From positions 443,721 through 507,720 of the forward strand of contig NZ_CP059198.1 of the NCBI RefSeq assembly GCF_014251715.1: a DNA stretch of 64,000 nucleotides, given 5' to 3'. The DNA is from Blattabacterium cuenoti. GTDB taxonomy: Bacteria > Bacteroidota > Bacteroidia > Flavobacteriales > Blattabacteriaceae. Below are positions 23,283 to 44,637 of the stretch, one piece after another. The translations under genes were made by a program, and so were the position numbers. Below the pieces are notes generated by a model that saw only the letters and a list, made by a program, of their open reading frames with translations, was not told where the DNA came from and ran no database searches. How positions within the stretch are numbered: position 1 is the stretch's first letter; every line of letters begins with the position of its first letter.

Positions 23283-23936
23283 TCATAAAATTTTTATATT
23301 TTTTATCTTATAATTAAATACAAACAATAAAATAACACCAATAAATATAAACATATCGGATAAATTAAAAATTGGTTTAAAAAACTGAAAGTGACTACCT
23401 CCAAAAAATGGGATCCAGGTAGGTAAACAAGTATTTATTATAGGTAAATAAAACATATCTACCACACATCCTTCCATAAGGGAAGCATATCCTACATGAA
23501 AACTATTTTCAAAAAATGAATTTATTTTAGATATTCCAAAATAAGGGATCCATTTATTATATAGTTTACTATAAACTGTTCCTGTATCAAATAATAGTCC
23601 ATATAAAGCACTATCTAAAAAATTTCCTATAGCTCCCGATAAAATAAAACTAGTAGGAATGGTTAAATAATGAGAAGATCCTTTTTTTATATTTTTGTAA
23701 AGAAAAGAAGATATTAAAAAAATTAAGAAAAAACGAAAAATACTTAATAATATTTTTCCAGAAGATCCATTCCCAAAATAAATACCATAAGCCATCCCAG
23801 GATTTTCTATAAAAAAAATCCAAAAAAAAGGAAATATGGAGATACCAGTTCCTAATTCAAAATGAGTTTTAATATAAATTTTTAAAATTTGATCTATTAA
23901 TAAAATAGAAAAAATAATGAAAAAAAATTTTTTCAA
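23283..23936 (-). CDS. lspA: Lipoprotein signal peptidase (signal peptidase II)
   Basis: Membrane aspartyl protease that cuts prolipoproteins before the lipidated cysteine. The 217-residue protein has four membrane segments and the family boxes IENPGMAYG, SGAIGNFLDSALYG, VVDMFYLP and FNLSDMFIFIG; the aspartates of VVDM and NLSD form the catalytic pair. Length is that of the longer Bacteroidetes form. A candidate substrate, the small lipoprotein at 32.2 kb, is in the window. It follows dksA by 15 bases. Confidence 0.95.
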   Translation of the reverse strand: MKKFFFIIFSILLIDQILKIYIKTHFELGTGISIFPFFWIFFIENPGMAYGIYFGNGSSGKILLSIFRFFLIFLISSFLYKNIKKGSSHYLTIPTSFILSGAIGNFLDSALYGLLFDTGTVYSKLYNKWIPYFGISKINSFFENSFHVGYASLMEGCVVDMFYLPIINTCLPTWIPFFGGSHFQFFKPIFNLSDMFIFIGVILLFVFNYKIKNIKIL

Positions 23937-30385: not shown

Positions 30386-30470
30386 ACCTGGGTGGTGGAA
30401 TTGGTAGACACACAGGACTTAAAATCCTGTGATCATTGCGATCGTACGGGTTCAAATCCCGTCCCGGGTA
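30386..30470 (+). tRNA. tRNA-Leu(UAA)
   Basis: Plus-strand 85-nt class II tRNA: acceptor ACCTGGG/CCCGGGT, anticodon stem CAGGA/TCCTG with loop CTTAAAA (anticodon UAA), long variable arm (TGATCATTGCGATCGT region), T arm ACGGG-TTCAAAT-CCCGT, discriminator A. Its last 19 bases are antisense to the 3' end of guaB. Confidence 0.96.
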
Positions 30471-31933
30471 TTTATTTTTTGAAAATAGTTTGGCGTTTCT
30501 TTTGTTATACTTACACTATGTGGATGATTTTCTTTTAATCCTGAATTAGTTATTCTTACAAATTTTCCTTTTTGCATGAGTTCGGTAATAGAAGATACTC
30601 CACAATATCCCATACCAGAACGCAATCCTCCACAAATTTGATAAATTACATCTTTTATTTTTCCTTTATAGGGGACTATAGCCTCTATTCCTTCTGGAAC
30701 AGATTTTTCATGAAATTGAAAATAACGATCTTTACTTCCTCTTTTCATAGCAATTAAAGACCCCATTCCTACATAAGTTTTAAATTTTCTTCCTTTAAAA
30801 AAAACTTCTTCTCCAGGAGATTCATCTGTACCTGCAAATAAACTACCAATCATAACAGAACTAGCTCCAGCAGCTATAGCTTTTACTACATCTCCTGAAT
30901 ATCGAATTCCTCCATCAGAAACTACATTAACATTTCTTTTTTTAGCATATTCATATACATCATTAATAGCTGTTATCTGAGGCATTCCTACTCCAGCTAT
31001 AACTCGCGTTGTACAAATAGAACCAGATCCAATTCCTACTTTTAAAATATTAGAACCAGCGTTTATTAAATCTTTTGCCCCTTCCATTGTTACTACATTT
31101 CCAGATAATAATGGAATTTTTGGAAAAGAATATCGAATGGATTTTATAGTTTTTAATATTCTAGAAGAATGACCATGTGCAGAATCTATTACTATAATAT
31201 CCGATCCTATTTTAACTAAAGAATCTACTCTTTCTAAAGTTTCATTATCTATACCTATAGCTGCTCCAACACGAAGACGTCCTTTAGAGTCTTTGCATGC
31301 ATTAGGATATTCAATTAAATTATCAATATCTCTAATTGTAATTAATCCTATTAATTTATTATGATCATCTATAATAGGTAATTTTTCTATTCTTGCTTTT
31401 AATAAAATATTTTTTGCTTTTTCTAAAGTTATATTTTTTTTGGAAGTAATTAAGTTTTCTTTCGTCATCACATCTTCTACTAAAGAATCTAAATTTGTAC
31501 GATATTTTATATCTCTTCTAGTAATTATTCCTACCAATAAATGATTTTTTTCTATTACAGGTAATCCTGATATTTTATATTTTTTCATAAGAGATTGAGC
31601 GAATTTTAACGTAGAATTCCTAGAAAGAGTAATAGGATCATCAATCATTCCACTTTCACTTCTTTTTACTTTATAAACTTCTTCGGATTGATTTTTTATA
31701 TTCATATTTTTATGTATAATTCCTATTCCTCCTTCTCTAGCTATGGATATAGCTAAGGAAGATTCTGTTACTGTATCCATAGCTGCACTTAATATGGGAA
31801 TATTAAGAATAATATCAGATGTTAGATAAGTTTTAAGAGAGACTTCTGATGGTAAAATGGAAGAATAGGATGGAACAAGGAGGACATCATCGAAAGTTAA
31901 AGCCTCTTTTAAAATTTTTTTATTTAAAAACAT
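30452..31933 (-). CDS. guaB: Inosine-5'-monophosphate dehydrogenase
   Basis: Oxidises IMP to XMP with NAD, the first committed step to GMP. The 493 residues form a TIM barrel ([14 protein letters not shown] at the start) interrupted by two CBS domains (about 95-205, with [10 protein letters not shown]), then the IMP loop [18 protein letters not shown] with the catalytic cysteine and the flap sequence. The tail ([12 protein letters not shown]) goes about ten residues past the usual end, and the TGA stop at 30452-30454 is inside the opposite-strand tRNA-Leu. Confidence 0.96.
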
Positions 31934-32110
31934 AATTTTTTATTTATAAAAATATATAATTTTGTTTAGGTTTAATAAAAAAAACACAATTTTATAATAT
32001 TCTTATTTTCAAATAAAAAAGAAAAGATAAAACTTAATTATATTACTTTTTGTATTTGAAAATAAAAAAAATACAAATAATGATATATTTTTTCATTCCA
32101 AATTTTTATA

Positions 32111-32118
32111 TAAATTTG
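32111..32118 (+). promoter_or_regulatory. Candidate Bacteroidetes -7 promoter box before the small lipoprotein
   Basis: TAAATTTG fits the Bacteroidetes -7 consensus TAnnTTTG exactly and lies 35 bases before ATG 32153, so transcription would start about 25-30 bases upstream of the gene. There is no clear TTTG -33 box. Confidence 0.4.
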
Positions 32119-32152
32119 TCCAGAATATGTAATAACTGAAATACTATTGATT

Positions 32153-32437
32153 ATGATGAAAAAATTAAGAATTACTGTTACTACAATCCTATTAGCAATA
32201 TTTTTGTTTACTATCAGTTGTAATAACAAAAACAAAAGTGAAACTCCTTCTCCTGCAACAGAAGAAGAAAAAACAGCTAATAATAATGAAAATCAAACAG
32301 ATTCTACAACTACAACAAATCCTCCTGCTACTTCTGGATCTGGAGAAGAAACCTCAAAAAATAATAATGAGGAAAATGGAACTACATCTGAAAAAGAAAA
32401 AGTGACTTCTGAAGAAAACGAAAAAAACAATAAATAG
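32153..32437 (+). CDS. Small low-complexity putative lipoprotein
   Basis: I do not recognise this gene. It encodes 94 residues: a basic N-terminus (MMKKLR), a hydrophobic stretch of about 16 residues and a lipobox-like end TISC-N, after which the mature chain is almost entirely Asn, Glu, Thr, Ser, Lys and Pro with no predicted fold. This looks like a lipoprotein with a disordered, hydrophilic mature part. The -3 residue is Thr rather than Leu, a weaker lipobox. ATG at 32153 or 32156 fits; the upstream TTG 32147 is less likely. It is a single-gene unit with a candidate promoter 35 bases upstream and a strong terminator eight bases after the stop, which argues for real expression. Confidence 0.65.
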   Translation: MMKKLRITVTTILLAIFLFTISCNNKNKSETPSPATEEEKTANNNENQTDSTTTTNPPATSGSGEETSKNNNEENGTTSEKEKVTSEENEKNNK

Positions 32438-32444
32438 AAGAATA

Positions 32445-32487
32445 AAAAGCAAAAAAGAGTACGCTTAATTCTCTCTTTTTTGCTTTT
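32445..32487. terminator. Strong bidirectional hairpin terminator
   Basis: A perfect 15-bp stem (32445-32459 with 32473-32487, AAAAGCAAAAAAGAG against its complement) around a 13-base loop, with T-rich flanks on both strands. It lies between the lipoprotein gene (plus) and rplS (minus), which converge, and can terminate both. It is the clearest intrinsic terminator in the window. Confidence 0.85.
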
Positions 32488-32498
32488 CTTCTCTTATT

Positions 32499-32855
32499 CT
32501 ATAAACTTTTAATCCTTGCTTTTTTACCTTTTAAATATCTAAAATAATAAATTTTGGCTCTTCGAACTTTACCTTTTTTATTAATTTCTATTTTTTGTAT
32601 ATTTGGCTGATTAAAAATAAATATACGTTCTATTCCTATACCTGCACTTATTTTACGTATGGTAAATGTTTTAGTTAAACCTTTTCCTTGTTTTTTTATT
32701 ACGACCCCTTTAAAAGATTGTATTCTTTTTTTTTCTCCCTCTTTAATTTCAAAAAAAACAGTTATTGTATCTCCAGAACAAAATAATGGAAAATTATTTT
32801 TTGAAATAAATTTATTTTCTATATATATAATTATATTTTGTAACATAAAATTCAT
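32499..32855 (-). CDS. rplS: 50S ribosomal protein L19
   Basis: Large-subunit protein at the 30S-50S interface. The 118 residues show FCSGDTITVFFEIKEGEKKRIQSFKGVVI and the C-terminal KVRRAKIYYFRYLKGKKARIK. ATG at 32853-32855 overlaps the glmM stop as ATGA; a second ATG three codons later is also possible. Last gene of the long minus-strand run before the terminator. Confidence 0.95.
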   Translation of the reverse strand: MNFMLQNIIIYIENKFISKNNFPLFCSGDTITVFFEIKEGEKKRIQSFKGVVIKKQGKGLTKTFTIRKISAGIGIERIFIFNQPNIQKIEINKKGKVRRAKIYYFRYLKGKKARIKSL

Positions 32856-34292: not shown

Positions 34293-35531
34293 TTATTCAA
34301 ATTCTATAACTTTTATGGGAGATGTTTTATTAATAATAAAAAAAGAAGGAAAAAATATTGATACAAAACAAATAAAAATAATGGAAAAATTTATCATAAA
34401 AATATGATTTATGTTAAAATAAACTGGAACATAATCTACAAAATATTGTATTTTATTTAATGAAATTAAATGAAATTTTTTTTGTATTACTAATATAGTA
34501 ATTGCTATTCCATTTCCTATAATTAATGAAGGAATAAATATTTGTAAAACATACAATAAAAATATTTTTTGTATTACTTTATTTTTTGCCCCTAAAGTTT
34601 TTAAAATACCTATGGTTTTAATTCTTTCTAAAAGAAGTATTATAATAAATACAATCATATTTATAATCAAAGCTAAAAAAACAATAAAACTAATAACAAT
34701 AATATTTACATGAAAAATATTTATCCACTCTACAATTGAATGATAATTTTTATCATAAAAAATTTGAACTGAAAAATCATTAGGTTTTTTTTTATAAATT
34801 TTTATATTTTTTTCTTTATAAAAAGAAGGAGATAAAAAAATTTCTAATTTTTCTGAAAAAAATTTTTTTTGATAATAAATATGTGGAATAAATTTTATAT
34901 TTCCAATAATGTAAACATTATCAAATTCTGGAATACCAGTTTCATATAAACCAGAAATTTTAAATTTTTTGGATAAAATAATAGGTTTTTTATTATTTTT
35001 AAAGAAAAAAAAATATATTTTTACATTTGAACCAATATTTAATCCTAATGATAAAGAAATTTTTTTTGATAAAAGAACGCTTTGATTGGAAAATAACTTT
35101 TTTTTTATATTAAAAATGTTTCCTTTTATCAAAAAAAATTTAAAAAATAGTGGGTTATAGTCTTTATATAATCCTTTATAAATATATCTATCTGTTTTTT
35201 TATTTGTATTAATAATCACATTATTTTCGGCTATTTTATAAATTTTTTCAATATAATTAAGATGGAAAAAATTTTTTTTTAGAAAATTTATTTCTTTTAT
35301 ATTTAACGGAACAATAGAATCTTTTTTTTGAACAAAAATTTGACCTTTAATATTAAATAATTTATTTTTTACAATTTTTTTTAAACCAAATCCTATAGAA
35401 AAAGTTAAAATAGTTATAATTAATCCGAAAATTATTGTTATTTGTGTAATGATTACTATTGATCTAAGATATTTATTTTTACTGCAATCTTTCCAAACTG
35501 TTTTTTTAGAAAAAAACCATTCAAAATTCAA
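34293..35531 (-). CDS. ABC transporter permease, LolC/LolE type (FtsX-like)
   Basis: Inner-membrane permease with the LolC/E plan: one membrane segment near the N-terminus (about 24-50), a large periplasmic domain (about 60-265), then three membrane segments with the FtsX-like core (GILKTLGAKNKVIQKIFLLYVLQ). In this family the complex moves lipoproteins from the inner to the outer membrane, working with a LolD ATPase not in the window. LspA and a putative lipoprotein nearby fit that role. The sequence is degenerate in the periplasmic domain. It starts 15 bases after dnaB. Confidence 0.8.
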   Translation of the reverse strand: MNFEWFFSKKTVWKDCSKNKYLRSIVIITQITIIFGLIITILTFSIGFGLKKIVKNKLFNIKGQIFVQKKDSIVPLNIKEINFLKKNFFHLNYIEKIYKIAENNVIINTNKKTDRYIYKGLYKDYNPLFFKFFLIKGNIFNIKKKLFSNQSVLLSKKISLSLGLNIGSNVKIYFFFFKNNKKPIILSKKFKISGLYETGIPEFDNVYIIGNIKFIPHIYYQKKFFSEKLEIFLSPSFYKEKNIKIYKKKPNDFSVQIFYDKNYHSIVEWINIFHVNIIVISFIVFLALIINMIVFIIILLLERIKTIGILKTLGAKNKVIQKIFLLYVLQIFIPSLIIGNGIAITILVIQKKFHLISLNKIQYFVDYVPVYFNINHIFMINFSIIFICFVSIFFPSFFIINKTSPIKVIEFE

Positions 35532-42844: not shown

Positions 42845-43065
42845 TAAAATTTTTATTTTTATTTATTAATATATATAATATATTAAAATTCTGTTTTTTA
42901 ATTTTTTTTAAAAAAAATATCATCTTTAATTTTGTATATTTATAAAATTCATTATTGAATTAGTTCAATTCTTTTCAAAAAAAATTTTTGTAATTCCTGT
43001 TAAAAATTTTATGTTTTATAAATGTTATAAACATCTCTATTTTATTTTTATTAAATTGATATAAT

Positions 43066-44637
43066 ATGAAAATAGATGTTGGATTTTCGATTTTAATGGG
43101 GTTTGTGGTTGGAATTGTTGCATGTTATTTTTTTGGAAAAAAAACCATATTAAAAAAATATATTCAGTTTTTAGAAAAAGCTAATTTTCAAGCAAAAAAA
43201 ATCATAAAAAATGCAGAAAAAGAAGGGGAATCTATTAAAAAAAATAAAATGATTCAAGCAAAAGAAAAATTTATAGAACTTAAATCTAAATATGAAAAAG
43301 ATGTTCATATTAGAGAAAGGAAGATAATGGATATAGAAAATAGGACAAAAGAAAAAAAAAATAGATTATCTAAAGAAATAGAAATATACTTTAAAAGAAA
43401 CAATCGTTTAGAAGAAAAAATACATGATTATGAAAATAAATACAAGTTTCTTCAAAAAAAACAAGAAGAATTTAAAAATATGCATATTAAACAAGTAGAA
43501 TTACTTGAAAAAATATCTAATTTTTCTTCTGAAGAAGCTAAAAATAAATTGATTGAACTTTTAAAAGGGGAAGCAAAAGTAAAAGCACAATCTCATATAC
43601 AAAATATTATAGAAGAATCACAATTAACAGCAAAAATGGAAGCAAAAAAAATTGTAATTCAAGCTATTCAAAGAATTGGAACAGAAGAATCGGTTGAAAA
43701 TGCTGTATCTGTTTTTAATATAGAATCAGATGATGTAAAAGGTCGTATCATTGGAAGAGAAGGAAGAAATATAAGAGCTCTAGAAAAAGCAACAGGAGTA
43801 GAAATAATTGTAGATGATACTCCGGAAGCCATTCTTTTATCTTGTTTTAATCCTATACGAAGAGAAGTAGCTAGACTATCTCTTCATAAGTTAGTAATAG
43901 ATGGACGGATACACCCAGCAAGAATTGAAGAAATAGTAGCAAAAACTGAAAAAAAAATTGAAGAAGAAATACTAGAAATAGGAAAAAAAAATATAATAGA
44001 TTTAGGTATTCATGGAATACATACAGAATTAATTCGAATGATAGGAAGAATGAAATATCGTTCTTCTTATGGACAAAATCTTTTACAACATTCTCGTGAA
44101 GTAGCACATTTAGCAGGAATATTAGCTTCTGAATTAGGATTGAATGCTAAATTAGCAAAACGTGCAGGATTACTGCATGATATAGGAAAAATTCCTGAAA
44201 TAGAATCGGATCTTCCTCATGCTATTTTAGGAATGCAGTGGGCAGAAAAATATGGAGAAAATACGGAAGTTTGTAATGCAATAGGATCACATCATGATGA
44301 AATAGAAATGAAAGTATTGATATCTCCCATAGTGCAAGTTTCAGATTCTATTAGTGGAGCTCGTCCTGGAGTTAGAAGAAATTCTTTTGAATCCTATTCC
44401 AAAAGATTAAAAAATTTGGAAAAGATAGCTTTCAGTTTTTATGGAGTTAATAAAGCTTTTGCTATACAAGCAGGAAGAGAGTTACGCGTTTTGGTAGAAA
44501 GTAATAAAATTGATGATAAAAAAGCTTTTCAATTATCTTGTGATATAACAGAAAAAATAAAAAATGAGATGACTTATCCAGGTCAAATAAAAGTTACTGT
44601 AATTAGAGAAACTAGGGCAGTACAAATAGCTAGATAA
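43066..44637 (+). CDS. rny: Ribonuclease Y
   Basis: Membrane-anchored endoribonuclease that starts mRNA decay in bacteria lacking RNase E. The 523 residues show an N-terminal membrane helix (about 7-25), a long lysine/glutamate coiled coil (about 35-190), a KH domain ([20 protein letters not shown]), and an HD phosphohydrolase domain with [10 protein letters not shown] and LLHDIGK, the metal-binding HD pair. It probably heads the rny-DHS-lpdA transcript. The 221-base spacer upstream shared with the cysteine desulfurase gene is AT-rich and holds no convincing paired promoter. Confidence 0.97.

Follow-up and report, generated by a model that had tools for sequence, protein, structure and literature searches.

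What keeps a small, apparently non-catalytic gene in the reduced genome of a cockroach endosymbiont? The question arises from an open reading frame of 94 codons in a 64-kb stretch of Blattabacterium DNA (hereafter the window), taken from a genome that consists of one contig of 621,487 bases. An earlier note, made from the letters of this stretch, had described the gene as a stand-alone small lipoprotein gene and had remarked that genome reduction usually removes genes of this kind. We followed up this description by comparing the locus among congeneric genomes, other members of the family and other Flavobacteriales. The gene and its neighbours are as follows.

30452–31933, minus strand: guaB (IMP dehydrogenase; PF00478 with CBS domains), divergent neighbour
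32153–32437, plus strand: putative small lipoprotein gene, 94 amino acids, stop included in the coordinates; matched in all 49 congeneric genomes, with indels of the coding type
32499–32855, minus strand: rplS (ribosomal protein L19; PF01245), convergent neighbour and synteny anchor

Occurrence of the gene in the genus and family

The frame of 94 residues was found as described, from an ATG at 32153 to the stop at 32437. There is a second in-frame ATG at 32156, and the program-made list of reading frames has an alternative TTG start at 32147 that would give 96 residues. The matches in the 49 congeneric genomes range from an E value of 7e-53, which is the self match, to 3.8e-10. All 49 frames are open from ATG to stop and encode whole proteins of 87–110 residues, and 24 of these sequences, picked for diversity, form alignment A1. 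The set includes one genome of 511 kb, in which the gene is kept. Coordinates compared by eye place rplS next to the gene, on the opposite strand and in convergent orientation, in all 49 genomes.

Outside the genus, a homologue was detected with the family model (E 4.7e-8) in G314, a genome of 1.3 Mb that belongs to a different genus in the family. Its frame of 91 amino acids likewise adjoins rplS in convergent orientation. Compared singly with the window protein (E 3e-10), the G314 protein is identical to it at 27 of 76 aligned positions. Judged by eye from translations, both genomes continue beyond rplS with a phosphoglucomutase-type gene and a LolC/E-like gene, and in G314 a TPR gene separates rplS from the former. 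On the other flank G314 carries an aminotransferase class IV gene instead of guaB (locus L088, G314:C1:173000-183000). The earlier note had proposed a search for positional homologues between guaB and rplS, whose absence from close relatives would have spoken against it; they are clearly present, in every Blattabacterium genome compared and in one genome of another genus, and the retention of this small gene despite genome reduction is confirmed. G314 itself is a useful intermediate between the free-living and the reduced relatives.

When the G314 protein was used in a back search, 38 of 148 genomes matched, namely G314 and 37 Blattabacterium, or 2 of 55 genera; the limit of E 0.01 was missed by some of the Blattabacterium genomes, G004 and G044 among them. 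Since the protein is of low complexity and the hits are nevertheless confined to G314 and Blattabacterium, the specificity is strong. The family model had no match in 18 genomes of 0.2–0.3 Mb from the same family, so the gene is not needed by every member. The simplest history would be that of an ancestral family gene that was kept in Blattabacterium and G314 and was lost, or diverged beyond recognition, in the most strongly reduced lineages.

Of the 395 genomes covered by the family-model search, 55 from outside the family gave weak hits, with E values of 2.5e-5 to 0.0096. Three of these, in G382, G085 and G228, fall on short, low-complexity Flavobacteriales lipoproteins that resemble the present protein in their frames of 76–92 amino acids, their cysteine past a hydrophobic stretch and their polar tail, but differ from it in their weak scores and in not adjoining rplS. 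We did not accept these short-frame hits (E 2.5e-5 to 2.2e-4) as homologues: rplS lies elsewhere in these genomes, and inspection by eye found no small lipoprotein frame within 1.5 kb of it. Plasmid records had no match to the protein.

The earlier note had been unable to assign the protein to any family, and nothing exceeded a Pfam or NCBIfam cut-off in our searches either. The best Pfam match scored 17.4 bits against a cut-off of 31 and the best NCBIfam match, among the best 25 of 34 matches, scored 20.6 against a cut-off of 160. In PHROGs, which gives no cut-offs, the best match (E 0.0011) was to a family of unknown function, and PDB sequences gave weak matches only. No description of the gene was found in the available parts of the literature on Blattabacterium, export signals, promoters and disordered lipoproteins. 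The words lipoprotein and hypothetical are absent from the main text of a study of selection in Blattabacterium genes (PMC6128925). A further study reports 13 Blattabacterium transcripts, of which its available part names rRNA and groES-groEL (PMC11050582).

Putative promoter and terminator-type hairpin

The features that flank the reading frame are listed below.

32083–32118, plus strand: conserved promoter block of 36 bases, with a mean column identity of 0.970; its best 16 bases are invariant in 21 sequences
32088–32096, plus strand: -33-like element TTTTTTCAT, separated from the -7 box by 14 bases, a spacing found in 46 of 49 genomes
32111–32118, plus strand: putative -7 promoter box TAAATTTG, conserved in 49 of 49 genomes
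32119–32152, plus strand: well conserved 34 bases from the box to the ATG; the distance is 34 in 31 of 49 genomes
32445–32487: terminator-type hairpin that may serve both the lipoprotein gene and rplS, which converge on it

The flavobacterial -7 consensus is TAnnTTTG or TAHHTTTG according to the available parts of PMC9723704 and PMC6847099. By the consensus given there, TAAATTTG qualifies as a Bacteroidota sigma-A -7 box in every one of the 49 genomes, which bears out the promoter box proposed by the earlier note. As for a -33 TTTG, the conserved TTTT[TA]TCAT lies near the right place in 48 of 49 genomes and is not an exact TTTG. The base at -3 from the start codon is A in 48 of 49, and an A at this position favors translation in F. 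johnsoniae, according to the part of PMC6847099 that was available.

The idea that TAAATTTG is rare in itself was rejected, as the window holds 12 copies compared to 22.5 expected by chance. Although the box alone is thus not above chance, it is a strong candidate because of the conservation of its 16-base context: the 16-mer TTTTTATATAAATTTG around it, upstream of the gene, is invariant in all 49 congeneric genomes, including that of the window. A scan for sigma-70-type promoters found no excess either, with 42 sites against 43.7 in shuffles.

To place this conservation on a scale, upstream regions were compared for 20 chosen genes in 20 chosen genomes plus the window; 6 genes with fewer than 40 bases upstream were skipped, and each remaining region was represented by 14–21 sequences. 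The region upstream of the lipoprotein gene is the most conserved of the 14, with 39 of 130 columns invariant and 0.970 over its best 36 bases. The next, before the gene at 43066, reached 0.949 with 20 of 130 columns, and the other twelve 0.635–0.788. A run of the comparison with a stricter limit left 2 regions. The case for a promoter shared with G314 is weak: the local score was reached by 12 of 300 Markov resamples, and the box in G314, TAGCTTTG, has a G at a position that is almost never G in F. johnsoniae in the available part of PMC6847099.

Two further observations concern intergenic sequence in the window. The second most conserved block of 36 bases, at 43022–43057 just before the gene at 43066, contains a short palindrome, ATGTTATAAACAT, and has no Rfam match at gathering score. 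The gap between guaB and the lipoprotein gene contains a perfect 13-base inverted repeat, TTATTTTCAAATA at 32003–32015 and TATTTGAAAATAA at 32053–32065; its first arm is well conserved and its second much less, so it is probably due to chance.

Downstream of the gene, the terminator that had been described as a perfect 15-bp stem is present, pairing 32445–32459 with 32473–32487 around a loop of 13. Its fold energy has a z-score of -5.0, and 0 of 200 dinucleotide shuffles were as stable. A consensus terminator scan did not list this hairpin because the scan allows loops of 3–8 only. We called a fold stable if no more than 1 of 100 mononucleotide shuffles attained it; by this measure, one occurs in 43 of 49 genomes within the 93 bases after the coding sequence (stop codon included), with stems that differ in sequence. 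The genomes without such a fold are L063, L070, L071, L073, L078 and L079. Since the hairpin lies in the 61-bp gap of two convergent genes, it may also end transcription of rplS. In L063, an AG-rich, repeat-like stretch with many GAGAAGAG-type units lies between the gene and the hairpin.

From the conservation of the box we infer transcription of the sigma-A type from TAAATTTG; the RNA would be about 365 nt long and stop at the hairpin ahead of rplS. The invariance of a -7 box of this type together with the A at -3 would point to an abundant product, as the earlier note had surmised.

Selection on the coding sequence

The predicted protein is divided into three parts.

32153–32218, plus strand: signal peptide, residues 1–22 (MMKKLRITVTTILLAIFLFTIS)
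32219–32221, plus strand: Cys23, which would be the lipidated +1 residue and is conserved without exception in the 49 sequences
32222–32434, plus strand: mature tail, with a basic start N-N-K-[NS]-K in 44 of 49 sequences followed by a predicted disordered, acidic part rich in N, E, T, S and K

A unit as short as this, flanked by a highly conserved promoter and a strong hairpin, could be a functional small RNA that contains a reading frame incidentally. Three properties of the coding sequence argue against this. In a frame-blind nucleotide alignment, the lengths of distinct gaps are divisible by three in 74 of 80 cases within the coding sequence, compared to 46 of 121 in the upstream flank and 29 of 97 in the downstream flank. 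The pooled dN/dS is below 1 throughout: the signal peptide has 0.18 and the mature part 0.37, while rplS, taken as a yardstick, has 0.23. These values were pooled over pairs that are not independent, after removal of those with pS of 0.55 or more, which left 933 of 1176, 824 of 1176 and 989 of 1081 pairs, respectively; rplS was recovered for 47 of 49 genomes. Lastly, in this AT-rich genome, T fills no more than 1.9% of the second codon positions. In addition, the window has only tRNAs among its Rfam matches at gathering score. We consider an RNA function with an incidental frame highly improbable.

The composition of the tail is constrained as well. Hydrophobic residues (F, I, L, V, M, W, Y and C) account for 70 of 3533 mature residues, or 2%, whereas 54% would be expected from random codons at the local intergenic composition; the count begins at codon 24 and includes the cysteine in a few sequences with one extra signal residue. 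The scarcity of hydrophobic residues and of T at second codon positions indicates that composition is held against mutation bias while the exact sequence drifts. It is this fast drift of the tail in sequence and in length that might suggest a decaying, functionless leftover, but the frame is intact in all 49 genomes, and composition, signal peptide, cysteine and promoter are all strongly constrained. A leftover is already contradicted by these results and hardly credible. That this is a real protein-coding gene under selection is, in our judgment, practically certain.

Probable lipidation, the tail and its proposed place in the envelope

Two genes elsewhere in the window bear on the processing and transport of a lipoprotein.

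23283–23936, minus strand: lspA, lipoprotein signal peptidase (NF011369 and PF01252 both over cut-off)
34293–35531, minus strand: LolC/E-like lipoprotein-releasing permease (TIGR02212 E 2.2e-26, below cut-off; PF02687 over cut-off)

The N-terminus combines a basic n-region, a hydrophobic core and a lipobox, under a relaxed pattern, that ends in cysteine; the lipobox-like TISC singled out in the earlier note does end in Cys23. Residue -1 is Ser or Gly without exception, and residue -3 is Thr in 41 of the 49 sequences. The relaxed lipobox, which follows PROSITE, was found in 48 of 49, the exception being L065 with Asn at -2, and the strict form [LVI][ASTVI][GAS]C in 2 of 49 only. The rarity of the strict form and the Thr at -3 would suit a protein that is exported without lipidation, either as a product of signal peptidase I or with a signal anchor. 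Against such a protein stand the invariant cysteine, which is also present in the G314 homologue, the constant Ser or Gly at -1, and the retention of both Lgt (PF01790 E 4.3e-54, over cut-off) and LspA (PF01252 E 7.8e-27, over cut-off) in the genome; we regard it as improbable. Judged from the sequence, the protein is quite probably lipidated at Cys23: the signal peptide would direct secretion, Lgt would lipidate the cysteine and LspA would cleave before it. The small lipoprotein gene of the earlier note, with a promoter box and a terminator to itself, is supported, lipidation being probable. A rough pattern scan of the 64-kb window found no other clear lipoprotein candidate; the one other pattern hit, at 43066, is a protein of 523 amino acids that we take to be RNase Y.

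Over the 49 sequences, the mature part consists mainly of N (25.4%), E (16.8%), T (16.3%), S (13.4%), K (11.6%), P (4.7%) and D (4.2%). It had been described as made of Ser, Thr, Asn and Glu only; these four are indeed the commonest, while Lys is frequent as well and Pro, Asp, Ala and Gly also occur. The net charge of the mature part is -4 to -13. In the AlphaFold2 model (mean pLDDT 56.9), the sole helix spans residues 3–23 and the mature part is coil with pLDDT of about 50, although low pLDDT alone is weak evidence for disorder. Sequence bias and prediction together suggest a tail of roughly 71 residues that would stay unfolded, hydrophilic and net acidic.

Which side of the membrane would such a tail face? 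The export signals described for Bacteroidota are C-X-K-(D/E)2-X, SDDDD or SDDFE in the available part of PMC5080379. None of the 49 sequences has Asp or Glu at +2 to +5 and none has two at +2 to +6, although the signal was defined in other Bacteroidota and may differ here. The surface lipoproteins that carry this signal resemble the present protein in a signal peptide ending in Ser/Gly-Cys, but here basic residues follow the cysteine, and a small disordered tail replaces a folded enzyme or SusD (PMC5080379, available part). Because the residues after the cysteine are not acidic like those of the known signals, display at the surface by the known export route, one of the two locations suggested in the earlier note, is not supported.

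A surface brush facing the host nonetheless deserves consideration. An acidic, disordered tail rich in Ser, Thr and Asn, placed outside, could shield the symbiont from cationic antimicrobial peptides or host receptors. Blattabacterium inhabits the fat-body cells of its host, whose genes for antimicrobial peptides and for peptidoglycan recognition respond when the symbiont is removed, according to the part of PMC11050582 that was available. The Lol route also looks incomplete. According to PMC11885536 (available part), conservation of LolA and LolB is the rule in Bacteroidota, and yet the search of this genome for LolA gave one PF03548 hit of 13.4 bits against a cut-off of 23.6, in a frame of 364 amino acids, and none with PF16584. 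Furthermore, two strains reportedly have lolD as a pseudogene (PMC6039017, available part). With LolA unrecognised and lolD decayed in those strains, routing to the outer membrane is uncertain, and the lipoprotein export route of Blattabacterium may be incomplete or unusual. Against a host-facing brush stands the start of the mature part, which has no acidic residue at +2 to +5 in any sequence and reads NNK[NS]K in 44 of 49, unlike the described signals (PMC5080379, available part); we think it unlikely. This basic, non-acidic start makes the periplasm the most likely side for the tail, a placement that we favor by a little.

The other location that had been suggested was a link to peptidoglycan. 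Lpp of Enterobacteria is a small, lipid-anchored, non-catalytic protein with a C-terminal Lys. The present protein is likewise small, probably lipid-anchored and apparently non-catalytic, mostly ends in Lys and has a plausible structural role in the envelope, but has no predicted helix past the signal peptide, and the comparison with Lpp finds neither a YkuD match in the genome nor a family match over cut-off for the protein. An Lpp-like tether would join the C-terminal lysine to peptidoglycan, and the protein is a small, acidic, Lys-containing lipoprotein that ends in Lys in 46 of 49 sequences. Lys is common in the tail, however, and where the genome is A-rich, a tail with so much Lys will readily have one at its end. 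The helical coiled coil of an Lpp-type mature part was not seen in the AlphaFold2 model, whose low confidence makes this limited evidence. No YkuD L,D-transpeptidase was found in the genome at E 0.001, a search that found one in 6 of 14 control genomes. As the Bacteroides control is not among these six, another linking enzyme could serve instead. The genome encodes one OmpA-domain protein. Taken as an Lpp-type link, the suggestion is not borne out, and we consider it very improbable.

We return to the lipidated protein with its tail in the periplasm. The tethered tail would act as a soft spacer or crowding brush that helps to hydrate the envelope and to hold membrane and wall apart. A spacer is the most likely job for this protein because selection holds composition rather than sequence, and we propose this role tentatively. 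For the protein as a whole, the best explanation is a lipidated, periplasm-facing, disordered envelope protein of Blattabacteriaceae, a reading to which we give an even chance. More speculatively, it could be a structural lipoprotein specific to Blattabacteriaceae and perhaps among the most expressed genes of the symbiont, serving as a composition-selected entropic brush that a reduced envelope needs, or as protection from the antimicrobial peptides of the host; this combination is improbable.

The gene offers a clear natural case of selection on composition and disorder, in which the sequence drifts and mutation bias pushes the other way. As an orphan, apparently non-catalytic gene kept by all 49 genomes, it is also a lead to a need of the symbiont envelope or of life in the host cell. 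Its retention in all the Blattabacterium genomes compared, despite strong reduction, suggests that the gene likely serves a real need of these cockroach endosymbionts.
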